DNA of 32,619 nt, taken from the IMG/VR virus record IMGVR_UViG_3300031673_000298, positions 1-32,619 of that record. One strand, 5' to 3'. Positions within the stretch are counted from its first letter, which is position 1, and each line of letters opens with the position of its first letter. Shown here piece by piece: positions 3,563 to 32,619 of the stretch. Source of the DNA: a virus. Below the pieces are notes generated by a model. The model was not told the origin of the DNA, ran no database searches, and saw only the letters and a program-made list of their open reading frames with translations. The position numbers were made by a program, and so were the translations under genes.

Positions 3563-4561
3563 TTATGTATCATAATCAGTATCATAAGAATTCTTGACTA
3601 CGATATCAGTTAAATTATCAGCGCCGACTTTCACGGCATATCCGACGCATTCCTGAAATATCGGTGCAGCTGCGCCGTCAAGATTAACTGGCGCGGGATT
3701 CCTTTTAAGGTGCTTGATGTTTATGTCAAGCGATCTTTTCAGATCCAATAATCCGTATTCGAAAGAAGCCTGAAACGATCCGTCCGCGATTGTGTCAGTA
3801 ATCGTAAGGCCACCAGCAGCGCCATAATAAACTTTTACATAATCCGCTGATGTTAAAAATTTCAGCGTATAGTTTACGTCGATTGTGAAAAGCTTTTCAA
3901 TCATTTCCTTCGGCGTCATTCCGGGACCAAACCAAACATCAAAGTTATTGCTCATTTTAATGCTGAATTTTGAAATTTCGACCGTCACGCCGATATCCGT
4001 CGTAAAAATTGGCGTGTCAAAATACATAAGTGGATCATTGTCTTCATAGGTTGGCGTGTCTGCTGCCGCTTGCTTAACGCCCTTTGTCCCGATAATCGAA
4101 GCCGTGCATTTTAACGGCTGGCTACTTTCGCCTTCGATCGTCAAAGATTCGACAACGCAATCTTGAAACCGTTCAATAAGCGTTGGCGTCGCAGCGTCAA
4201 CACCGCGCGCGATCGTAAAAAAATGCGGAATTACTGGCACGCCAAAAACGTGATTTGACGGCGTAACCCCGACGGCCTTCGCAGTGAAAGTATCGCCGCC
4301 CATAAACATTCCGATTAAAAATCCTAATACGTCCGGGCGCGCGTAAAACGAAACATCTCCCGTGACTTTGTGCGTCGATTTGTAAGATTCGATCATATAA
4401 CGGCCTGATCCGCCTTCGACGCCTTTTATATCTTCTTGTTCGTTGACTAAACTTTCACTTAAATATTTAATGTAAAGTCCAGCAACGGGCGCTACGGGTC
4501 CGTCAATAGCAGCCTGTTTTGCAAGTCCAATATATCCGTCTGTTGTTAATTTCGGTGGCAT
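3563..4561 (-). CDS. Major tail (tube) protein
   Basis: This 332-residue protein immediately precedes the tail chaperone pair, where the tube subunit is encoded in siphoviruses. Its sequence is beta-rich with recurring segments such as HKVTGDVSFYARPDVLGFLIG, VESLTIEGESSQPLKCTASI and FSIKMSNNFD, the alternating pattern of tail tube and phage_tail_2-type proteins. At 332 residues it is longer than a minimal tube protein (about 150-200), so it may be a two-domain tube subunit. A GGAGAGTAA-type ribosome binding site precedes the ATG. No Ig-like decoration domain was recognised. Confidence 0.85.
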   Translation of the reverse strand: MPPKLTTDGYIGLAKQAAIDGPVAPVAGLYIKYLSESLVNEQEDIKGVEGGSGRYMIESYKSTHKVTGDVSFYARPDVLGFLIGMFMGGDTFTAKAVGVTPSNHVFGVPVIPHFFTIARGVDAATPTLIERFQDCVVESLTIEGESSQPLKCTASIIGTKGVKQAAADTPTYEDNDPLMYFDTPIFTTDIGVTVEISKFSIKMSNNFDVWFGPGMTPKEMIEKLFTIDVNYTLKFLTSADYVKVYYGAAGGLTITDTIADGSFQASFEYGLLDLKRSLDINIKHLKRNPAPVNLDGAAAPIFQECVGYAVKVGADNLTDIVVKNSYDTDYDT

Positions 4562-4590: not shown

Positions 4591-4812
4591 TTATTCTTTA
4601 TAAACTGGTTTAAATCCGCTGTTCGGTGTGGCCCGTTCTTCTTTCAGCGGATATATTTTTCCTTTTTTCAGCTTTCCGAATTCTGGCGTCATGCTATCGC
4701 CGCCAGTCCATTCAGCGCCAATATATTTCCCAGATGTTTCGGAATTAATTTCTTTTGGTTTTATATGCGATATATCATAACCGACAGTTTTCCCCCCTTT
4801 TTTATCTTTCAT
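4591..4812 (-). CDS. Small structural-region protein of unknown function
   Basis: A 73-residue basic protein lies between the tail-terminator fusion and the major tail protein. It has a good ribosome binding site (AAAAGGGGGGA before the ATG). No transmembrane segment, cysteine motif or recognisable family was seen. Lys/Gly-rich ends flank a more ordered middle (GKYIGAEWTGG). Its place in the neck/tail block suggests a minor virion or assembly protein, but nothing in the sequence shows which. Confidence 0.75.
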   Translation of the reverse strand: MKDKKGGKTVGYDISHIKPKEINSETSGKYIGAEWTGGDSMTPEFGKLKKGKIYPLKEERATPNSGFKPVYKE

Positions 4813-4824
4813 AAGTCCCCCCTT

Positions 4825-6279
4825 TTAATCTTCTTCTTTTGTGGCTTCAATATCAAATTCGACAATAATTACTGGATTGTTTTTATCCAATACAGCACCA
4901 ACACTGGCCGATGGCGATATCGCAAATAAAACAGCACCATTTAATTTAAGATGTTGCTTGAATTTATACAGTATTAATTGCGTAAATGCTTTTAAATCGT
5001 CCTGCGCTTTTTCGTCATCATGTAATCGGACAATAAGTCGCATGATCCATTTATAAATTACAGTAAAGCTGACGGCTTCTGTTTGTGATTGAGTAAAGCC
5101 ATTAAAGAATAAAGTTACGGCCGGCAATTGCGGTATTATTCTCGGCTCATAATCAATGACGGTTTTTAAATCCGTTATCGTTGATAAAATGTTTATAATT
5201 TCAGTTTCGATTGCCGCTATATTGTAACTTATAGAATATTCGTGAATCCCGATATCACATGCGGTCGATCGTTCCATTCCCCAGTAATCAATACCAAAAA
5301 TAGCTATCAAACTTATTCCTTTTTTAATGCATGGCGAAGCCGGTGTAAGCCTGTAATCGATTGCCGCTGTTCCGCCGGGATTAACAAACAAAGGATTTGC
5401 GCTGATCGAATTTGCGTCCTGTCCGCTTGCGGTTTGCCAATTCAAAAGCGTTAATCTTGCGACAGTCCAATATCCGGCCTTTCCGGTCCCAGTCGGATAC
5501 AAATCATTATAATCCGAAACAAACCCGGCTTGACTATTATCTGATATATACAAACAATTTCCGGTAGCACTCCAAATCGCATTATTTTTACAAATCCCGT
5601 TAGTCGAATTCGAATTGAAAGTTATTCCTATTGCGCTGAAATAAGAAGTATTATTGTATGTGCCACACCCCGTGCTTTCATTGATATATATTCCTGACGA
5701 AGTATTAAGCGGACAGTTATTATTATAAATTATTGTATTTGCGCTTTGATCTACCGCTATCCCATAAAGATTCGAATAGCAATTATTGTTATATATTTTT
5801 CCTGTCGCACTTAACTTAAAATTTATTCCGGTATTTGTATTCGAATAGCAATTATTTTCGTAAGCTTCGCCGGATGTGCTTGACAAAAACCATATTCCAG
5901 CGCTGCCGATTCCATAACATTTATTTTTTTGCGTAACACAATTTGTGCTTAATTCTATTTTTATTCCTGCCGTAGTGTATTTTGTAACCGAAAATCCCTT
6001 TATCGTTACATAATTAATCTGAAAAACATAAAATCCAAGTGCAGCGACATTGTTGCCGTCTAATATTGGATAATATCCGGTAGCAGCTTCAATCACTAAT
6101 CTATATGTTGCCGTTGGATTAAGTAAGGTATTCGGGACCGGCGTTTCGTTATATGTTCCGCCGTAAACTCTTATTGTTTGTGTTTCAATAAAAGCATTCG
6201 CGCCTTCTATTGCGAATAAATTATCAAGCGCTGCTTGAATTGTTGCGTATGGTTTTCCCGTTCCGACTTCTCGTATCAT
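4825..6279 (-). CDS. Right-handed beta-helix domain fused to a tail-terminator-like domain
   Basis: This 484-residue protein has two clear parts. Residues about 5-345 open with VGTGKPYATIQAALDNL and contain coils of 22-23 residues (ENNCYSN at 141, NNNCYSN at 164, NNNCP at 186), ending in ACDIGIHEYS: a parallel beta-helix of the NosD/pectin-lyase type, common in tailspikes. Residues 351-484 (IAAIETEIINILSTITDL...LPAVTLFFNGF...WIMRLIVRLHDDEKAQDDL) have the size and pattern of a stand-alone tail terminator, which caps the tail tube at the neck. No other terminator candidate occurs between the gp10-like gene and the major tail gene, so this domain probably fills that role. No in-frame ATG near the junction would allow separate production. 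The helix could be a collar or neck spike. Confidence 0.75.
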   Translation of the reverse strand: MIREVGTGKPYATIQAALDNLFAIEGANAFIETQTIRVYGGTYNETPVPNTLLNPTATYRLVIEAATGYYPILDGNNVAALGFYVFQINYVTIKGFSVTKYTTAGIKIELSTNCVTQKNKCYGIGSAGIWFLSSTSGEAYENNCYSNTNTGINFKLSATGKIYNNNCYSNLYGIAVDQSANTIIYNNNCPLNTSSGIYINESTGCGTYNNTSYFSAIGITFNSNSTNGICKNNAIWSATGNCLYISDNSQAGFVSDYNDLYPTGTGKAGYWTVARLTLLNWQTASGQDANSISANPLFVNPGGTAAIDYRLTPASPCIKKGISLIAIFGIDYWGMERSTACDIGIHEYSISYNIAAIETEIINILSTITDLKTVIDYEPRIIPQLPAVTLFFNGFTQSQTEAVSFTVIYKWIMRLIVRLHDDEKAQDDLKAFTQLILYKFKQHLKLNGAVLFAISPSASVGAVLDKNNPVIIVEFDIEATKEED

Positions 6280-6288
6280 TTTTTATCC

Positions 6289-6522
6289 TTATCTTTGATA
6301 TTCTGCTGGCGTAACAATAATCGCTGTTTCGCCTGCATTTACACAATATTTATTTGTATTTTGCCAGTCCAATATTTGAACATCAGTCATTGCGATTGTT
6401 AATACGCCAAAATTTATTACATTTAATTCTTCTGACCCCCACACAAAACCCACATCTTTTATCGCGCTTATTTTTCGATAACCAAATAGTCCAGTATCTT
6501 TTATATATAAAATTTCTTTCAT
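6289..6522 (-). CDS. Small neck-region protein of unknown function
   Basis: A 77-residue protein whose ATG overlaps the preceding stop (ATGA at 6522-6519), with AAAGGAAG upstream, implying translational coupling to the gp10-like gene. The sequence is beta-rich (GYRKISAIKDVGFVWGSEELNVINFG) and without cysteine clusters or membrane segments. It lies in the connector/neck block, so a minor virion or assembly role is plausible. No family recognised. Confidence 0.75.
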   Translation of the reverse strand: MKEILYIKDTGLFGYRKISAIKDVGFVWGSEELNVINFGVLTIAMTDVQILDWQNTNKYCVNAGETAIIVTPAEYQR

Positions 6523-7052
6523 TTAAAACCTGCTTCCTTTGAAATTAGATTCACTACATTATCTAAAATCTTTTGTATTCTTGCAAGTGACGATTCAACT
6601 CCACGCGCTATATATTTTTTCGGCTTGATCGTAACTTCTTGCATGAAAATAAAATCTTTAAGATAAACAAGGCTGCTGCCGCCGCGCTGTGGTCCTACCC
6701 TGCGCCCACGCGCGCTCGTAGGCACGAATAAAGCCTTCGCAGTTCTGGGCCTGATAGTGCCGCCTTCTTCTTGAATAGGCCCGTAATCCTTCATGTTGCC
6801 GCCGATGACGGCTTTTAAATTACCCATAACATAATTAATTGATCTGTTCAAGCCGCCCGTAAAATAGGCTTGTGGTTTCGTTTTGTGACCCATTCCCCAG
6901 CCCGGAACGATATTCCTTTTTATTTCGCCCTGAACCAGTATTGCTGATTTTTCAATTCCGCCTTGAAATATTTTATTTACCGTTGTCTTCGGATCTTTAA
7001 TTGCCGCTTGAAGCTTCGGCGGTATTTTTAATCTGATCGCAGTTATCGGCAT
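6519..7052 (-). CDS. Tail completion / neck protein (HK97 gp10-like)
   Basis: A 177-residue basic protein with the features of HK97 gp10-type proteins: an N-terminal helix region with GIEKSAILVQGEIKRNIVP, a central section reading YFTGGLNRSINYVMG and YGPIQEEGGTIRPRTAKALFVPT, and a C-terminal helix after KPKKYIARGVESSLARI. The 'tGgLrrSI' and 'yg.iqE.Ggt' elements are characteristic of the family. Such proteins join head and tail at the neck. The gene lies between the gp6-like connector and the terminator fusion, as expected. Confidence 0.82.
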   Translation of the reverse strand: MPITAIRLKIPPKLQAAIKDPKTTVNKIFQGGIEKSAILVQGEIKRNIVPGWGMGHKTKPQAYFTGGLNRSINYVMGNLKAVIGGNMKDYGPIQEEGGTIRPRTAKALFVPTSARGRRVGPQRGGSSLVYLKDFIFMQEVTIKPKKYIARGVESSLARIQKILDNVVNLISKEAGFK

Positions 7053-7641: not shown

Positions 7642-8067
7642 TTATTTTTTCTTGTTTTTCAAAAGGTTTGCACCCTTGCCTGTAATGTCCTTTTTCTTTG
7701 TGTTGTCGCCGGTTTCCATTTTGTTTTCCGGGACGTCCGCAACTTTTTCTTCTGCTTTTTTGTCTTCGCCTTCTTTAACTTCTTCAATATATCCTGCGTT
7801 GATCAAATTCTTTGCGCGTATTTCATCAATCGGAACAATAAGGACCTGTCCCTTCATGTGGACCGCGCCTTTTTCGACAAGTTTATCTATTAAAGATCTA
7901 TATTTTTTTTCGGTATCCATTTTATTTACTCCTTCGACGTCGGCTATTCTTTCAAAGCCTTCGTCAATTGTTTGCCATTTGAATTTATTAGACAAAGGCC
8001 CAGCGTTACCAGCCGGACCTTCGCCTTTTTTCGCTAAACCGAATGTATTTTTGCTATTTAAAACCAT
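7642..8067 (-). CDS. Head-region protein of unknown function
   Basis: The start is placed at the ATG at 8067, which overlaps the preceding stop (TAATG), giving 141 residues. A longer open frame to 8241 only shadows the upstream gene. The first half carries a compact segment (TFGLAKKGEGPAGNAGPLSNKFKWQ); the middle has helix-rich sequence (KYRSLIDKLVEKGAVHMKG and IRAKNLINAGYIEEVKEG); the last 45 residues are a charged Lys/Glu tail. The NAGYIEEV element resembles short domains seen in head proteins between capsid and connector genes, but no family is assigned. Confidence 0.72.
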   Translation of the reverse strand: MVLNSKNTFGLAKKGEGPAGNAGPLSNKFKWQTIDEGFERIADVEGVNKMDTEKKYRSLIDKLVEKGAVHMKGQVLIVPIDEIRAKNLINAGYIEEVKEGEDKKAEEKVADVPENKMETGDNTKKKDITGKGANLLKNKKK

Positions 8068-8615
8068 TACGATCTTTGGAAGCCTGAAACAATAAATGCG
8101 TTCGTTGCCGTGCAAGTCGTCACAACGTAGCAGGCCTGTTGCCTTTTTAAAACCAAAAGCGGATATCCAGCAAGCTGGACCGTTGCCGCGCCGACTGGCA
8201 TTGCGTATTCTGGGGCCGTTGTGCCGCCCGTAATCGCGCAACCGTAAACATAAGCGCCAGCGCTGTAAGCATACGCCAAATTATTTACCAGCGTATAAGA
8301 TACGTTTGCCGCAACCGCGCCCATTACATTTACTTCGCATAAAAGCGGATCAACGACGTCCTGAATAACCACAAGATCATTCAAAACAATTCCAGCAGTC
8401 AAAGCGCATAACATAACTTTCTGTGCAGCTGCGCCGCCTGCTGTTGCCCTTCGAAGTTTCGAAAAGTGGAAAGTTAAAAGTGTTGCAGCCAAATCGTTCG
8501 TCGCCTGAATAAAGGTAATTATCCTTTGCATATTTTCCGAAGCACCCAAAACTTGTCCGGGTGCCAAAACCAGTCCTGCGCCTGCCGGCTTTGAAGCAGA
8601 AAAATAAGTCTTCAT
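8067..8615 (-). CDS. Putative capsid-associated (decoration-like) protein
   Basis: The start chosen is the ATG at 8615 behind AAAAGGGGGATTAAATTT, giving 182 residues; the longer frame from 8669 lacks such a site. The protein is neutral, Ala/Val/Gly-rich and beta-structured, for example PGQVLGASENMQRIITF, GIVLNDLVVIQDVVDP and VQLAGYPLLVLK, and has no membrane topology despite its hydrophobicity. It directly follows the major capsid gene. Position and composition suggest a virion head protein, perhaps decoration or head completion; this is inference. Confidence 0.65.
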   Translation of the reverse strand: MKTYFSASKPAGAGLVLAPGQVLGASENMQRIITFIQATNDLAATLLTFHFSKLRRATAGGAAAQKVMLCALTAGIVLNDLVVIQDVVDPLLCEVNVMGAVAANVSYTLVNNLAYAYSAGAYVYGCAITGGTTAPEYAMPVGAATVQLAGYPLLVLKRQQACYVVTTCTATNAFIVSGFQRS

Positions 8616-8726
8616 AAATTTAATCCCCCTTTTAAAAATCCTGCCGGACCCGGTCGAATAGTTTCGCATAGACAGGCCCGGTCAGGTTTATCGCTTAAAC
8701 TCTAACCGAAGAGATCAGCGAATAAT

Positions 8727-9947
8727 TTATAACAAGATCCCCGTGATTCTTGTAAATTTTGAAGCGTCCGATAACCTGAATGCAACCCTTCTTACTGCCC
8801 TGAAAAAAGTCGCATCGTAATCAAATTTCCACTCATTCGAAGACGCTATTTCGACTTGCGCCCTATCGCCTATATGCGCGAAGTTAAAGTCGCCTACTAT
8901 TGAGTAACTTTCGTTTGCACCAATACCCAGATTATGCGGTATATATTTGTTGCCGATTGCGTCAGCGTCCCAGACTGTGGCTGGCGTGTTTTTGTCAGCC
9001 GGCTTCTGGTAAATATATTGGCCATCATCGTCTTTCATTTTGCGCATTTTCCTTTTTTCTCGTAGCGCGTGTAAAATCGTTACTTCTTCGCCGTCATCTT
9101 CTTCGACCGTTCCAATCCCGTCAGCATAATCATCCATTAAATCGCCGCTGTAAGGCAATGTGGTTATCCCGGCAAAATTATAAATACCGGTTATCGGGTC
9201 CGCAGGTGCAACGCCCGTTCCCTGCACGAATGCAGTTTCTTCGCCGCGTATCATTGCCATTGCAAATAACCTGTAAAGAATTTGGTCGACGCGTGGATCG
9301 CTATCCGCAAGTAATTCGTCCGATACGCCCGTAAGGCAACATAATTTATATGCTGTTAAAACCATTTGCTCGAAAGTCGGGTCGCTCTCGGTTTTTGGCG
9401 CATGTTCTCCAATCCAATACGCTGTCAAATTAGCCGATACCACTGGGACTGTTTGTGTCATCGAAGACATAGGCCACACGTTGCCCAATCTTGTTAGTAT
9501 CTGCCTAATTATAGATTTTTCAGTTATCAAATCTATAAGTGTTTTCGATTGTTCTACCGGCACTAAAAATCCGCCGGCCGCTGGCGTTCCTTCTACCAAC
9601 ACTTTTTCGTCGGCGTCCGTAAATACTTTGCTTGCACGGACAAGTTTATATTTGTCAATCAATCGCGGATGTTGTGTTTTGATACCGATTAAAACTTCGC
9701 GAAAAGATTGTTTGCTTCCCGGATCTTGCACGAAACCGGGTGCTTTCTTTGCGTCGATTATTCCCTGAATTCCCGAAAAAGCGCCCTTCATTCCTTTTTC
9801 GATTGCGTCCGCGACAGCCTTATTTATGGCGTCGCTTACTTCTTTTAGCGTCACCGTATTTTCAAGTAACGCCAGTTCTTTCTTTTCCGCGTCCGTAATT
9901 GTCCCGGCCGCTTCTTTCTCTTTTAATGCTGTTTTTTTTGGGTCCAT
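8727..9947 (-). CDS. Major capsid protein (HK97 fold)
   Basis: This 406-residue protein shows the order of HK97-type capsid proteins: a charged helical N-terminal region (residues about 1-90) that could act as a cleavable scaffold (delta) domain, then EGTPAAGGFLVPVE near 119-132, and a core with VPVVSANLTAYWIGEHAPKTESDPTFEQMVLTA cut into family-typical elements, LLADSDPRVDQILYRLFA and RGEETAFVQGTG. The C-terminal part has VGDFNFAHIGDR and FRAVRRVAFRLSDASKF. The gene follows the prohead protease and is served by a consensus promoter inside that gene. A Lys/Asp-rich insertion lies near residues 285-320. Confidence 0.95.
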   Translation of the reverse strand: MDPKKTALKEKEAAGTITDAEKKELALLENTVTLKEVSDAINKAVADAIEKGMKGAFSGIQGIIDAKKAPGFVQDPGSKQSFREVLIGIKTQHPRLIDKYKLVRASKVFTDADEKVLVEGTPAAGGFLVPVEQSKTLIDLITEKSIIRQILTRLGNVWPMSSMTQTVPVVSANLTAYWIGEHAPKTESDPTFEQMVLTAYKLCCLTGVSDELLADSDPRVDQILYRLFAMAMIRGEETAFVQGTGVAPADPITGIYNFAGITTLPYSGDLMDDYADGIGTVEEDDGEEVTILHALREKRKMRKMKDDDGQYIYQKPADKNTPATVWDADAIGNKYIPHNLGIGANESYSIVGDFNFAHIGDRAQVEIASSNEWKFDYDATFFRAVRRVAFRLSDASKFTRITGILL

Positions 9948-9971: not shown

Positions 9972-11123
9972 TTAGACTTTTCCTTGCGCATGATCGATTT
10001 TCTTGCTGATCATTCCGGGAATGTCTGCTGCTTTTATGGCATTCCCTATGATCTCCGCCAGTGGGTCGACCTTCGCTTCGGTTCTGTCTTTTATTATTAT
10101 AACATTTTTTTCGCGTTTGTCAATAGTTTTGCCTTTATCGGGTTCAGTTGCGACAAGTAATTCCTGTAAATTTTTCACAACGCATTGAATTAATTCTCTA
10201 TTTTTTGCCGACAGCACGCGTCCGGATTTCAATTCATTTAAAGCCTTTTCAAGATTTTCTTTATCCGCGATGGCTTCGTCAAGTTCTTTTAAAATGTCCT
10301 GATCAAGAATCGTCTTATTTTTTTTGTCGGGAACAATTTCAAATTGTTCGAATTTATTTACATCGTTTATATCCGCGTCATATCCTTTGCCATGTTCTTT
10401 TACCCACTCCACAGCTTTTGGAATCGTCCAGCCTTTCGCTTTATCAAATACATATTTTTGGATTGTTGTCGCGGTTTCGCCTTTTAATTTTCCGATGACG
10501 CCCGAAATTCCTTCCTTCGCACTGATTACAATTGTCCTGAAACTTCCTTCTGTGAATAACTTCGGATCGCGCACGCGAACGTGAATCTTGTCTTCGGTTT
10601 CTTCGGGTTCGGGTTTATTTATTTCTTCTTCTTTTTCGATTATTGATTTAATCATCGCGATTGCTTCTGGACTTTTTAAAACACCGGTAAGCATTCTTTG
10701 TGCTAATGCTTCTTGATTACATCCAACATCGCAACAGGATACTTCGAGCAATTCGCAGTTCGTCAAAATACTTTCATCTTCGGTATCACGCTTACAACGA
10801 AATCCGACACTAAACATATTTAAAAATCCGTCCTTGTATAAATTGAAAATGTCTTCGGCAAATGCAGTCTTTGCAAATTGAATTTTTTGCATTAATCCAA
10901 TTTGATCGATCTTCGTCCAAAGCGCTTTTCCAACGGGCGGCTGTCGATAATCGTGCGACCAAAGTATAACAGGATTTTTATTATAATTATCCAGTTTCCA
11001 TTCATCGGGCGGAATTGTTTCACCGACCCTGTCCTTGTCGCCCGTGCTGACATAGGCCGTGATCGTCCGTTCTTCTTCATTGCTTTCTTTTATTTTCCCT
11101 ATATAATCTTTAACTATTTTCAT
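9972..11123 (-). CDS. Prohead maturation protease with extra middle and coiled-coil C-terminal regions
   Basis: A 383-residue protein. Residues 1-140 form an HK97-type (U35) prohead protease: His57 in WSHDY and Ser105 in FSVGF match the catalytic His and Ser contexts, and LEVSCCDVGCNQEAL matches the usual 'ElSvvpvganpeA' element. Residues about 180-248 (VRDPKLFTEGSFRTIVI...GKLKGETATTIQKYVFDKAKGWT) form a second small domain often appended to phage proteases. Residues 265-310 are a coiled coil, perhaps a scaffold-like part removed in maturation. It precedes the capsid gene, and its 3' part contains a promoter. The three-part reading is inference from pattern. Confidence 0.88.
   Translation of the reverse strand: MKIVKDYIGKIKESNEEERTITAYVSTGDKDRVGETIPPDEWKLDNYNKNPVILWSHDYRQPPVGKALWTKIDQIGLMQKIQFAKTAFAEDIFNLYKDGFLNMFSVGFRCKRDTEDESILTNCELLEVSCCDVGCNQEALAQRMLTGVLKSPEAIAMIKSIIEKEEEINKPEPEETEDKIHVRVRDPKLFTEGSFRTIVISAKEGISGVIGKLKGETATTIQKYVFDKAKGWTIPKAVEWVKEHGKGYDADINDVNKFEQFEIVPDKKNKTILDQDILKELDEAIADKENLEKALNELKSGRVLSAKNRELIQCVVKNLQELLVATEPDKGKTIDKREKNVIIIKDRTEAKVDPLAEIIGNAIKAADIPGMISKKIDHAQGKV
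10096..10123 (-). promoter_or_regulatory. Consensus promoter inside the protease gene, upstream of the capsid gene
   Basis: The minus strand has TTGACA at 10123-10118, a 16-bp spacer, and TATAAT at 10101-10096. Both hexamers are perfect. Start of transcription would be near 10089, about 140 bases before the capsid ATG at 9947 and still inside the protease coding sequence. It would raise capsid expression above that of portal and protease. Confidence 0.72.
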
Positions 11124-16656: not shown

Positions 16657-16797
16657 TTATCCTCCAATTAAATTCCAGCCGAACATAAATATATTTATAA
16701 ACATTTTCAGGATTAGTCCAGCCATAAAAACCGAAACGATAATCATCAAAGCGATAACAACCATTCCGATTTGCTTCATTAGTTTTGTCTTATTCAT
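16657..16797 (-). CDS. 46-residue membrane peptide
   Basis: The ATG at 16797 overlaps the end of the methyltransferase gene and has AAGGAAGG 6 bases upstream. The product is almost entirely one hydrophobic helix (residues 11-40, including GMVVIALMIIVSVFMAGLIL) with a short basic N-terminus (MNKTKLMKQ). It ends at 16657, right before the next gene's ATG; its last codons GGA GGA carry the downstream ribosome binding site. It would sit in the inner membrane. The coupling on both sides supports a real gene; function unknown. Confidence 0.68.
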   Translation of the reverse strand: MNKTKLMKQIGMVVIALMIIVSVFMAGLILKMFINIFMFGWNLIGG

Positions 16798-18001
16798 TTT
16801 TACCTTCCTTTAAATTTAATTTTTTCGCTTTTTTATTTGTAAACTTTTCCCATCTGTCTATTATAACCTGACAATATACAGGGTCAATTTCCATTCCGTA
16901 ACATATCCTTCCTGTCTTTTCACAAGCTATTAACGTGCTTCCGCTTCCTAAAAATATATCTACAACGGTATCGCCTTTCTCAATAAATTCCATTAAAAAA
17001 AATTCACAAAGTTTAGTGGGTTTTTGTGTTGGGTGTAATCTTTTTTTTGAATCTTCTTTACTTAACCCAAATATTCCTTTCCATAAACATCTCACAATCT
17101 GTCTTTTATGTTTTGCTTTACTCCAACATAATTCAAAGTTACTGCCAAACATTTTGTCATAAGTGGAATTAGGACTAATTCCACCCTCTGTTTTATCCCA
17201 AACAAAAAAACAACCTTCGTTTCTTTTTGGTATTTCCTGTGCATAATAATCAGCTCCCCATAAAAATATCTCTTTGCAATAATCAAAGTCCCTAAATACA
17301 TGTTCCGGTTTGTAGTCTTTTTCATCATTCATAACCTGTTTATATTTATTACCTTTTGCAATTCCCTTCATGTCCGTAAAATCACAATCCAATTTCATTC
17401 CGTATGGCGGGTCAGTAAACACCATATCCGCCTTTTTACCGCCCATTAACCGCTTCACGTTCGCTTCTACCGTGCAATCCCCACAAAGAAGGTAATGCTT
17501 TCCCAACTGAAACATATCACCAATTTTAATATTTGTTTTTCTTGTTTCAGGGATTTCATCGTCAGCTTCCGTCGACTTAATATTCCTGTCTAAAATATCC
17601 TGCAAATCCATATCCGGCATTTTAATATCTAATTTATACATAGACAAATCAACCTTCCCTAATTTTTTTATTTGTTCTGCCAAAATATTCTCTACATAAT
17701 AACCAGCCCGGTCATTATCGGAAATGCTGATCTTTATTCGTTCCGCTTCGTCTTTTGTTTCAATAACCGTTATCCAAACTTTTTCATGCTTCAATTCCTT
17801 TAATGCCTTTAATCTCATGTTTCCGCCGATAGTAATATATTTATTTCCTTCCTTTTCGCAGATTAAAGGTTTGTATAATCCCAAAGTTTGAATTTGCTTT
17901 TTAAGTCGTTCAAGATCCGGCTTCTTAATATCGCGCGGATTATCCTTCCAGTTTTCTATTTCATCGATTTCGACTTCTTTTGATTTATTTATTATTTTCA
18001 T
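16790..18001 (-). CDS. ParB-like domain fused to a DNA methyltransferase
   Basis: A 403-residue protein. Residues 1-100 form a ParB/Srx-like domain (NPRDIKKPDLERLKKQIQTL, then ITIGGNMRLKAL at about 57-67). Residues 158-395 are a DNA methyltransferase with the catalytic DPPYG at 197-201 and the S-adenosylmethionine site FLGSGST at 350-356 followed by GRICYGMEIDPVYC. The order, catalytic motif before cofactor motif, marks the beta class, and DPPY usually means N6-adenine methylation. No restriction nuclease is nearby, so it is probably an orphan protecting phage DNA or marking its own sites. ParB-methyltransferase fusions are common in phages and mobile elements. AAGGGAAGG precedes the ATG. Confidence 0.92.
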   Translation of the reverse strand: MKIINKSKEVEIDEIENWKDNPRDIKKPDLERLKKQIQTLGLYKPLICEKEGNKYITIGGNMRLKALKELKHEKVWITVIETKDEAERIKISISDNDRAGYYVENILAEQIKKLGKVDLSMYKLDIKMPDMDLQDILDRNIKSTEADDEIPETRKTNIKIGDMFQLGKHYLLCGDCTVEANVKRLMGGKKADMVFTDPPYGMKLDCDFTDMKGIAKGNKYKQVMNDEKDYKPEHVFRDFDYCKEIFLWGADYYAQEIPKRNEGCFFVWDKTEGGISPNSTYDKMFGSNFELCWSKAKHKRQIVRCLWKGIFGLSKEDSKKRLHPTQKPTKLCEFFLMEFIEKGDTVVDIFLGSGSTLIACEKTGRICYGMEIDPVYCQVIIDRWEKFTNKKAKKLNLKEGKNE

Positions 18002-28222: not shown

Positions 28223-28720
28223 TTAATTGAAGTGCATTACTATTTTTGCAAGTCCTGCGCCGACGCGTGCCTGAATAACGTGTCCGATTTCGAGAAAATG
28301 TTTGTCAACCGAAAATGGACTTCCCGGAGTAGCTTCGCTCAATGCTTGTCCGGCTACGAAGCCGCCGTCAGCTGCTACAAATCCGCGTGCTATATGGCCC
28401 AGTGTCGTATTTCCGATAAAATAAGCTTCCGCAATTCCTTCGATCACGATCCACGCCGGCGATCCGTCCGGGATTCCGCTTTCATAAAAAACACCAATCG
28501 GATTAGGAATATTTTGAAGCAACAAAACAACTGCTTCGGCCGTGACAGTCGACGGCGTCACAAGATATCCTTTAACGCTGGCCGCGCCCGTTTTATTTAA
28601 TAATTGGATAGAAACGCCGCCTTCTGGCGTTATCCTGACCGGACTATTTTTTATGTTTGCTGCAACCAGCAATTCAAGTGTTTCAATTCTCTTTTGTAGT
28701 TTAAAAATAATATCTTTCAT
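28223..28720 (-). CDS. Virion protein with coiled-coil N-terminus and beta domain
   Basis: A 165-residue protein. Residues 1-18 (MKDIIFKLQKRIETLELL) are a short coiled coil likely to trimerise. The rest is beta-structured, Gly/Ala/Val-rich (IQLLNKTGAASVKGYLV, AVVLLLQNIPNPIGVFYESG, HIARGFVAADGGFVAGQALS), ending in a strand with GLAKIVMHFN. The pattern is like phage decoration or fibre-tip domains. The ATG overlaps the stop of the large tail protein. It is the last gene before the lysis cassette, so a tail or head fibre is plausible. Confidence 0.65.
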   Translation of the reverse strand: MKDIIFKLQKRIETLELLVAANIKNSPVRITPEGGVSIQLLNKTGAASVKGYLVTPSTVTAEAVVLLLQNIPNPIGVFYESGIPDGSPAWIVIEGIAEAYFIGNTTLGHIARGFVAADGGFVAGQALSEATPGSPFSVDKHFLEIGHVIQARVGAGLAKIVMHFN

Positions 28721-30660
28721 TTACTCGATAACCCCATATCGGCAATAATTCCGCCGCCACTGATTTTGTATTTTACTTTCTTGATATATAATTCATAAGC
28801 AATCCTATATTTCGCTTCAAGGTATGAAAGGACGCCGCTATCCATGCACGAATTTGATTCAAAGTTTATTTCGATTTTCATATAGCGAAAAATTTCTAAA
28901 AGCGTTCGTTCTGTAAGTTCTTCAATAGGTTCAAATGCGTCAATAGTCCAGCTGTCAAGTTCAGGCGTCCGGGCCGTATTAGTCGTTGTCAGTGTCACCC
29001 TTACGCGCCAATATCTATGTAATCCTTCCGCCGTTAAATCTGCCTTGCCTGCCGTCAAGACATAAGCGGCAAGTGCCGAATAAGCGATCCCATCATCGGA
29101 ATGCGAAACTTCAAATGTTATCGCTGTGCTTTCCGGCGTTTTATAGGTCGCCGAAAGCGTCACGGGATCAGTCGGGACTTGTCCCAGATCAATATCGTTT
29201 TGATTGTATCCAGTCACTTGATAAACGCCGCCGCCTGTATCTTCGAGTAAAACATATCCCGGCTTTGTTGCTGTGTCGATCTGAAAAGCAACCTGATTAT
29301 ATCCTTCGAAATCAACTTTACTTGTTAAAGTTTTCCAAGCAATCCAATCTACATATTGAATAAATCGTGTTATTAAAGACGAATTCAATAAATGAATTCC
29401 AAAAACCATATCATAATTGTCGGCAAATGCTGAATTACTCCATATTAATCCGTCCCAATTTCGAGGTTTTCCTTTCGGATAAGTTCCAGCCGCCATATAT
29501 CCAATATAAATTGTATTCACACCGTCAATAACATAATCACCAACCAAAACCAAATGATATTGAGTATTTTTATTTAAAATTTTTGACGTATTAAAATAAA
29601 AGACTAATTCTTTATTGATTAGTGCAGGAATATTATTCGCTTCTATTTTAATTGAAACATAGCTTTCAATTAAAGTCGAAGGATAACCACTTCCATTGTC
29701 TGTCCATATTTCCACCCATATTTTTTTACCCAAAGCAATCGTTCCTGCTTTTTGTGTTATTATTCTAACTTTATCAATTATTCCGTCTTTTGTTATTTGA
29801 AAACCTTGCGAAAATTTTTCCGAAATACCAAATTCACGCAATCCAAAAAGCGTATCTCTTTCATATTCTGGAATTGTTTCATCATATAAATGTTTTGTAT
29901 CTATTGCGTCAGAATAAACGCCCTTGTTTATTGGCGATTGTTCCAGATCGATTATATTTGTAAATCTTCCAATCGCTTTTTTATCGTTTACTACACCAGC
30001 AATCCAATAAATGTCCATATCAAATTCAGCTGATCCATTATTATTTCCAGTGCAAAAAATATCATTGTCAGCATAAACCAAAGCGATTGCAATTATCGCT
30101 TGCGTCAACTGTGTGCCAACATTATCGTAAGAAGTTATAATATATTGTGTTGCTGTTTTTTTTATTCTTAAATAACCGTCATCGTTTCCCGGACAGCCAA
30201 TAACCGCGACTTGCCAAGCAACGCCATTCCAGTAATATCTTGTTACGCCACCTACATCCATATATGTAATTCTAAAAACCCCCAAATGTATATGAATCCA
30301 AATCGGGTCAAGGTAAGCACCGGTCGGAAGTAATGATGAAAAGACAGTTACAACCAACGGGGGTATGGTAAATTTATACCGCATTAAAATATCATAAGTC
30401 GCAGGCAAATAAAAATCCGAATAAAGATTCGCGGTCGCTGCGACAGCGGTTCTATGAAGAGCAATTTTATCGTTGGCTTCCGTTATACTTCCTGATCCTG
30501 ATATAAGAGTAGCCCACGCCGGATTAATCGCAGCGTCATCAAATTCGTCCAGCCATTGATGAATATTTACGGGGACGCTGTCAATAAAAATATTATGCTG
30601 TATTGTTGCTGCGATGAATTCCGCGTATGTATCTATTTTCTTTTCCAAAAATTCAGCCAT
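28717..30660 (-). CDS. Large tail/baseplate protein with several beta domains
   Basis: A 647-residue protein. Residues about 35-225 (EFDDAAINPAWATLISGSGS, ITYMDVGGVTRYYWNGVAWQ) resemble a lectin-like jelly roll; about 265-425 (GFQITKDGIIDKVRI, YVLLVG-type strands, TIYIGYMAAGTYPKG) form a second beta domain of the kind seen in exported carbohydrate-binding proteins; about 470-570 (QVTGYNQNDIDLGQ, ITFEVSHSDDG, RYWRVRVTLTT) a third, F5/8-like sandwich. The C-terminal 80 residues are helical, then ISGGGIIADMG. It lies downstream of the Gp37-like baseplate gene, as adhesion or baseplate proteins do. No enzyme motif found. Confidence 0.75.
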   Translation of the reverse strand: MAEFLEKKIDTYAEFIAATIQHNIFIDSVPVNIHQWLDEFDDAAINPAWATLISGSGSITEANDKIALHRTAVAATANLYSDFYLPATYDILMRYKFTIPPLVVTVFSSLLPTGAYLDPIWIHIHLGVFRITYMDVGGVTRYYWNGVAWQVAVIGCPGNDDGYLRIKKTATQYIITSYDNVGTQLTQAIIAIALVYADNDIFCTGNNNGSAEFDMDIYWIAGVVNDKKAIGRFTNIIDLEQSPINKGVYSDAIDTKHLYDETIPEYERDTLFGLREFGISEKFSQGFQITKDGIIDKVRIITQKAGTIALGKKIWVEIWTDNGSGYPSTLIESYVSIKIEANNIPALINKELVFYFNTSKILNKNTQYHLVLVGDYVIDGVNTIYIGYMAAGTYPKGKPRNWDGLIWSNSAFADNYDMVFGIHLLNSSLITRFIQYVDWIAWKTLTSKVDFEGYNQVAFQIDTATKPGYVLLEDTGGGVYQVTGYNQNDIDLGQVPTDPVTLSATYKTPESTAITFEVSHSDDGIAYSALAAYVLTAGKADLTAEGLHRYWRVRVTLTTTNTARTPELDSWTIDAFEPIEELTERTLLEIFRYMKIEINFESNSCMDSGVLSYLEAKYRIAYELYIKKVKYKISGGGIIADMGLSSK

Positions 30661-31684: not shown

Positions 31685-32619
31685 TTAATCATCTATCTTT
31701 TCTAAAAATAAACAAGCTTCATTGTAATTATATCCGGGAGCTGGACCCGCTGCAAAAGCTCCAATAATAGCGCCAAGAGCATTTGCCCAAGCATAAATTC
31801 CAACCGTATCACCAGCCGCTAATCTAAAAGGTGGGGGAGTATGAGAAAATCCATCTCCACTGTTCGCAGGAGTTGTTGATTGATGATAACTTCCTTCTAC
31901 TTCTCCTGCCGCATTTATCTCCAATTTACCACCAAATACTATTCCAACGCCTGCCGGTTTTCCCATAATATAATAAGTTGCTCTATACAACCCACCAACA
32001 GCAACAGTTAAAACGTCGGCCGCAAAAGACATATTTTTTAAATTAACCGAATTAGATAAATTAACAAGATACCATGTATTTATTACTGTTAAAGCAGTTG
32101 TTACATTTTGACTATATGCTCCCCCATATGCTTTTTCCGGAAATCCTTGCGGACTTTCTACTTTACTATAATATATTAAACTGGGATTTCCTACTAAAAT
32201 TGATGTCGCTAAAGTTATTGTTGTTACTCCAGCACCGAAAGTGGGAGTTATTAAAATACGAGCATATTTTACTGCTGTATCTGTTAATTTTATTTTATCG
32301 CCGGCTTGAACTCGAGAAGTCCAGTCGCCCGTAATTGTAAAAACCGTTCCGCTTATTCTTACGCCGGCCGCTGCTTGAAGCAATAACCAGTTTCCTGTAA
32401 TATGATATTTTTCAAGTTCAATACCCATTAAAGCCAAAATATTATGATATAAAGCAATCCCACCGTTTTTTACCAGCGTAAGCGTGACGTGAATTGCGGA
32501 AGCCGTGCCGTCTTGCGCGCGCGTGATCCCTGTAAAAGATGTAGCTGTGACGCCCGTATATGAAATAACTTCGGCGTCAATTAGAATAAGTCCTTGCGTC
32601 GGAAAACCAACCGTTGCAA
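31685..32619 (-). CDS. Tail adhesin / receptor-binding protein, 3' part (C1q-like tip)
   Basis: The frame is open from the window end at 32619 and runs to a stop at 31685; its start lies at 287 in the other window end, so the full protein has 361 residues. The last 140 residues (VAVGGLYRATYYIMGKP, AAGDTVGIYAWANALG) have the pattern of a C1q/TNF-like jelly roll, a trimeric fold used by phage receptor-binding tips. The middle region (residues about 125-200) is beta-rich (GDWTSRVQAGDKIKLTDTAV). A false TTG start at 32437 should not be used. Confidence 0.85.
   Translation of the reverse strand, partial: ATVGFPTQGLILIDAEVISYTGVTATSFTGITRAQDGTASAIHVTLTLVKNGGIALYHNILALMGIELEKYHITGNWLLLQAAAGVRISGTVFTITGDWTSRVQAGDKIKLTDTAVKYARILITPTFGAGVTTITLATSILVGNPSLIYYSKVESPQGFPEKAYGGAYSQNVTTALTVINTWYLVNLSNSVNLKNMSFAADVLTVAVGGLYRATYYIMGKPAGVGIVFGGKLEINAAGEVEGSYHQSTTPANSGDGFSHTPPPFRLAAGDTVGIYAWANALGAIIGAFAAGPAPGYNYNEACLFLEKIDD
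32484..32619. repeat. Terminal direct repeat, right copy (circular overlap)
   Basis: This matches bases 1-136 except at 32610 (A; G at 127). On the coding strand this turns a GCT (Ala) codon into GTT (Val) within the adhesin gene. Either the read population holds two alleles or the contig end carries an error. Confidence 0.95.

Follow-up and report, generated by a model that had tools for sequence, protein, structure and literature searches.

The window analysed here is the complete 32,619 nt of the IMG/VR record IMGVR_UViG_3300031673_000298. Its minus strand carries an uninterrupted open reading frame of 484 codons that joins a beta-helix to a tail-terminator-like domain (Table 1), and the other two minus-strand frames over the same region contain dozens of stops. 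Each half has its own homologue in a different viral genome: the beta-helix in IMGVR_UViG_3300032069_000067 (L002) and the terminator-like domain in IMGVR_UViG_3300024429_000025 (L007). The intact frame and these separate homologues bear out the fusion proposed in a first-pass annotation of this DNA. The annotation, which named no strand, had the order of the domains right and placed their border after residue 345; since the alignment with the beta-helix homologue ends at Y348 and that with the terminator homologue starts at S351, we set it at residue 348/349.

Table 1. Features of the fusion locus and its neighbourhood, in window coordinates.
Feature	Position	Strand	Basis or description
Fusion gene, 484 aa	4825..6279	-	Residues 1-348 beta-helix, residues 349-484 tail-terminator-like domain
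Beta-helix part, residues 1-348	5236..6279	-	Pfam Beta_helix; L002 homologue; fold matches
Tail-terminator-like domain, residues 349-484	4828..5235	-	L007 homology; weak profile matches
Fusion point	5229..5238	-	Coding strand GAA TAT TCT ATA AGT TAC
Candidate internal start, TTG at residue 324 (position 5310)	5310..5325	-	AAAAAAGGA six bases upstream; sequence only
17-base repeat TTCGAATAGCAATTATT	5771..5856	+	Two exact copies, at 5771 and 5840, 69 bases apart
77-aa companion gene, first of the putative inserted cassette	6289..6522	-	L002 homology; precedes the fusion gene
Neck1/tail-completion (HK97 gp10-like) gene	6519..7052	-	phrog_26, E 0.0035; 38% identity to L007 homologue
73-aa small gene in the terminator-tail tube gap	4591..4812	-	Kept in L007, 55% identity over 44 residues
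Tail tube (major tail) protein	3563..4561	-	PF18906 Phage_tube_2, 1.1e-24; 54% identity to L007

The N-terminal part has the properties of a right-handed beta-helix. Residues 83-210 match the Pfam Beta_helix family (PF13229; 7.8e-13, 48.8 bits against a curated cut-off of 25.9), and strands are predicted at residues 104, 127, 150, 172, 195 and 217, giving coils of about 22-23 residues. AlphaFold models built on alignments of two or three sequences had low confidence; the best one contains regular coils at approximately residues 81-250 with pLDDT values of 60-90, the remainder being of low confidence. This beta-helix model aligns with solved structures of AlgE epimerases, NosD, tailspikes and phi29 gp12 at Z scores of 19-22; the likeness to tailspikes is one of predicted fold. 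The helix ends in a C-cap motif (...SPCI...DIGIHEY) that resembles the choice-of-anchor Q motif. Residues 305-348 score 20 bits against the corresponding domain model (NF041518), which is under its 25-bit cut-off, and are therefore not assigned to this domain; the beta-helix relatives in L002 (27.2 bits) and in a further viral contig, L012 (29.9 bits), pass it.

The 17-base repeat reported earlier is exact and exceeds chance expectation: 0.04 occurrences were expected, and none of 100 shuffled sequences contained two copies. Its spacing had been read as three coils and as a hint that the helix grew by duplication. However, 69 bases correspond to 23 codons, which at a strand period of 22-23 residues is a single coil. 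This rules out growth by three-coil duplication, whereas duplication of a single coil fits the spacing and may possibly have given rise to the repeat.

For the C-terminal part, the closest match is a stand-alone 137-aa protein of L007 (L007:5378-5791), which shares 46% identity with residues 350-484 along their entire length (135 residues; E 4e-46). Profile matches are weak: the L007 protein matches phrog_4204, 'tail terminator', with E 0.027 over profile positions 8-131 of 147, and the window domain matches the profile of Mu gp37 (PF08873), a hexameric tail terminator (PMC11915804), with E 0.11, below cut-off. A search with phrog_4204 across the whole window genome gave no match. The predicted order of structural elements, helix-strand-strand-helix-hairpin-strand, taken from a low-confidence model (mean pLDDT 54), agrees with the published description of the T5 terminator (PMC11784142). 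Compared with the PDB and BFVD, this model returned no terminator, an absence that model quality makes little informative. cGAS, nucleotidyltransferases and MamM domains, which were among its Foldseek/VIA matches, had Z scores below 8 and were dismissed as common alpha/beta arrangements. Comparison by hhalign with terminator-slot proteins of Gordonia and Rhodococcus phages gave no match, both profiles being too shallow.

The position of the gene points to the same function. It follows Neck1 and has the tail tube gene close downstream, an order that is found, likewise with a small gene in between, in Gordonia phage GMA7 and Rhodococcus phage Mbo2, and that corresponds in lambda to gene U between Z and V. 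The slot between the gp10-like and major tail genes had thus been correctly assigned, but the fusion gene does not directly adjoin either of them, as two small genes of 77 and 73 aa flank it. Fold and profile evidence that is weak by itself leaves some room for a different neck protein, such as a stopper or an adaptor-like protein, in place of a terminator. We consider this very unlikely, as the adaptor and Neck1 are already assigned to separate genes and the domain combines a terminator-like size with the place between Neck1 and the tail tube that the terminator takes in the lambda order Z-U-V.

A separate terminator gene elsewhere in the genome had been named beforehand as a finding that would count against this identification. 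None was found when the whole record was searched with the protein, and almost all of the remaining longer genes could be assigned or were scanned. The record looks whole: its ends (1-136 and 32484-32619) differ at a single base, and a tail gene continues across the join when they are connected, so it probably represents a full genome of about 32.5 kb. Together with the L007 homologue in the same slot and the weak profile matches, this result makes the identification of the C-terminal domain as a tail terminator, the core of the earlier fusion reading, well supported.

Gene order in the window and in L007 is collinear, comprising portal, protease, capsid, adaptor, Neck1, terminator, 73-aa gene, tail tube, chaperone, tape measure and Dit. 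The L007 homologue of Neck1 matches phrog_5 with E 3e-8. The two genomes share a terminator that is homologous over its full domain within the same surrounding genes, but in L007 its own ATG follows immediately after the Neck1 stop, and neither the beta-helix nor the 77-aa gene has a counterpart in that record. In the window, the ATG of the 77-aa gene overlaps the Neck1 stop. Two further genes of the window deserve mention. The TTG start listed for 7642-8241 overlaps 8067-8669; as the part homologous to L007 does not start until residue 112, translation probably begins at an internal site. At 16790-18001, a ParB-like domain is fused to a DNA methyltransferase (phrog_498, 1.6e-78), which is ordinary for phages.

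The beta-helix homologue in L002 is a protein of 775 aa that ends 13 residues past the conserved cap; its C-terminal part shares 47% identity with residues 1-348 of the fusion, up to the C-cap. The gene directly before it in L002 encodes a 151-aa protein, whose N-terminal half and the 77-aa protein of the window share 47% identity. In contrast to the window, the L002 beta-helix is not fused; its protein has a further domain at the N-terminus (phrog_34853 match; BspA-like repeats by eye) and is encoded between capsid and connector genes, with a separate terminator-like gene downstream. The beta-helix and the 77-aa gene are the sole pieces that the two genomes share, the L002 capsid belonging to another family (Mu gpT-like). 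As L007 is collinear with the window and has neither gene, and as L002 has both in the same order but unfused, we infer that the two genes were probably inserted as one cassette between the Neck1 and terminator genes, and that in-frame fusion followed.

The L002 terminator-like protein is 230 aa long and has a C-terminal extension. By inspection, L002:7188-7850 (connector), 8627-9319 (terminator-like) and 9985-10593 (tail protein) seem to have in common an inserted stretch of about 60 residues (...TVDYTVGKITF...); the pattern resembles the spread of a single surface domain across several neck and tail proteins. Beta-helix proteins also lie near capsid or connector-like genes in two more viral contigs (L012:1500-3143 and L013:3388-6408). 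Environmental phages may recurrently carry beta-helices in their head-tail region.

At the fusion point the domain boundary has neither ATG nor GTG; ATA occupies the position expected for the terminator ATG, and a TAA in the +1 frame overlaps it. This looks like an earlier stop/start overlap that was put in one frame by a one-base insertion, with loss of the ATG, although a +1-frame stop at such a place commonly arises by chance. A similar insertion, for example TATC read as TATTC, could be an assembly or sequencing error that joined two adjacent genes. The source is a single metagenomic contig, and removal of one T after TAT creates a TAA stop (...EYL*) near the point where the L002 protein leaves the conserved domain. 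However, the junction is free of homopolymers, and the corrected terminator gene would still have ATA instead of ATG. Because the ATG is lost as well, one sequencing error cannot restore two normal genes, and an artefact of this kind appears highly improbable.

The statement in the first-pass annotation that no internal start allows separate terminator production was too strong. The TTG at residue 324 is preceded by a Shine-Dalgarno-like site with a predicted anti-Shine-Dalgarno pairing of -5.6 kcal/mol, close to that of accepted starts in the same genome (-6.0 for the fusion gene's own ATG and -5.4 for 28717-30660). Initiation there would produce an unfused terminator of 161 aa that includes a short leader. 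The fusion could then be mostly apparent, with the terminator made from TTG 324 (or ATA 350) and the long product being a minor or non-virion by-product. The strength of the site, which equals that of some accepted starts, and the resemblance of the junction to a former stop/start overlap would agree with this. Yet both codons are weak starts, ATA even more so than TTG. The TTG at 324 also falls within the beta-helix cap, by 25 codons, and the fusion retains the conserved C-cap through residue 348; given also how often a +1 stop occurs by chance, we regard a merely apparent fusion as quite unlikely.

A search for homologues with the same fusion, as had been proposed, found no close relative carrying it among 2.9 million viral contigs, so there is no sign of the fusion being maintained by selection. 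Searched against viral contigs, the terminator, tail tube, Neck1 and 77-aa proteins returned L007 or L002 alone. INPHARED phage records contained no convincing match to the whole fusion or to either half, and the bacterial genomes searched yielded distant beta-helix surface proteins alone. In the open-access literature we found no terminator fused to a beta-helix. The fusion is thus far known from one metagenomic genome.

Taken as a whole, the data are best explained by a tail-terminator subunit with an N-terminally grafted beta-helix adhesin, present in up to six copies at the neck, a reading that we hold to be fairly likely. According to this model, the cassette of the 77-aa gene and the beta-helix gene would have entered between the Neck1 and terminator genes, and loss of the gene boundary would have brought the beta-helix in frame with the terminator. 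Terminators form a hexameric ring atop the tail tube (PMC11784142, PMC11915804). As other terminators are hexameric and cap the tail tube below the head, it is reasonable to infer that the fused subunits would form such a ring and display up to six beta-helices at the neck. These would be tightly attached, since fewer than five residues separate the beta-helix cap from the first predicted terminator helix. A 348-residue N-terminal domain might, however, hinder ring assembly, because in T5 the N-terminus lies at the subunit interface and an N-terminal tag left the terminator monomeric (PMC11784142). The weak internal TTG could supply some unfused terminator, diluting the spikes.

The most likely role of the neck beta-helices would be accessory binding of host or matrix glycans, raising the chance of first contact, like the lactococcal neck passage structure (NPS). 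An adhesin role is suggested by fold matches to carbohydrate-active enzymes and tailspikes and by the neck beta-helices of 936 phages, Andhra and phi29; that the beta-helix binds glycans is guesswork based on the predicted fold. The extra N-terminal domain of the L002 protein is in keeping with an adhesin. Instead of binding a ligand, the beta-helix could serve as a structural brace of the head-tail joint. The tight join would hold it as a rigid domain close to the ring, and decoration proteins often act as cement, but the collinear L007 manages with the same terminator and no beta-helix, and the unfused L002 version has a further N-terminal domain, as adhesins do. On balance, a brace seems rather unlikely.

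It is also possible, though we would not call it probable, that a mobile adhesin cassette occupies varied head-tail sites of unrelated phages and has here been welded to the terminator, resulting in a six-fold crown of host-binding spikes. If the grafted-adhesin reading is true, the small, near-invariant terminator ring would be a display platform at the phage neck. The states before and after the graft are seen in three genomes, which would make the route, cassette entry followed by loss of the boundary, directly readable. The fusion offers a test of whether a neck adhesin can be added by one gene fusion, and a candidate six-fold display scaffold.

Known systems show that beta-helices at the neck are less rare than had been supposed, as they occur in the appendages of phi29 and Andhra (PMC9710869) and in two groups of 936 neck passage proteins (PMC6669499). 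In the lactococcal 936 phages, NPS groups D and E have predicted beta-helix domains, and one NPS was shown to bind host cells, weakly, via its binding domains (PMC6669499). The 936 structures resemble the arrangement proposed here in that a predicted beta-helix is displayed at a siphophage neck. They differ in that the beta-helix is C-terminal, is combined with a BppU-like domain and a coiled coil, forms trimers and is encoded by a separate accessory gene (PMC6669499). A Pfam scan of the fusion detected Beta_helix and NosD alone, and its N-terminus is beta-helix, so that it has no BppU-like N-terminal domain; judged by the N-terminal BppU-like domain and trimeric coiled coil that mark an NPS protein, it falls outside this class.

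The appendages formed by phi29 gp12 and Andhra gp15 are likewise beta-helix receptor-binding proteins arranged around the neck, but these phages are podophages, and the proteins are trimers, bound non-covalently at portal and collar, that serve as the main receptor-binding proteins (PMC9710869). Larger terminators with extra domains are known from myophages and tail-like machines; in contrast to the N-terminal addition in the window, these extra domains are C-terminal, either touch the sheath or are duplicates of the terminator fold, and include no beta-helix (PMC11784142, PMC11915804). Neck beta-helices and terminators with extra domains are thus both known, and what this metagenomic genome adds is a beta-helix on the N-terminus of a siphophage terminator.
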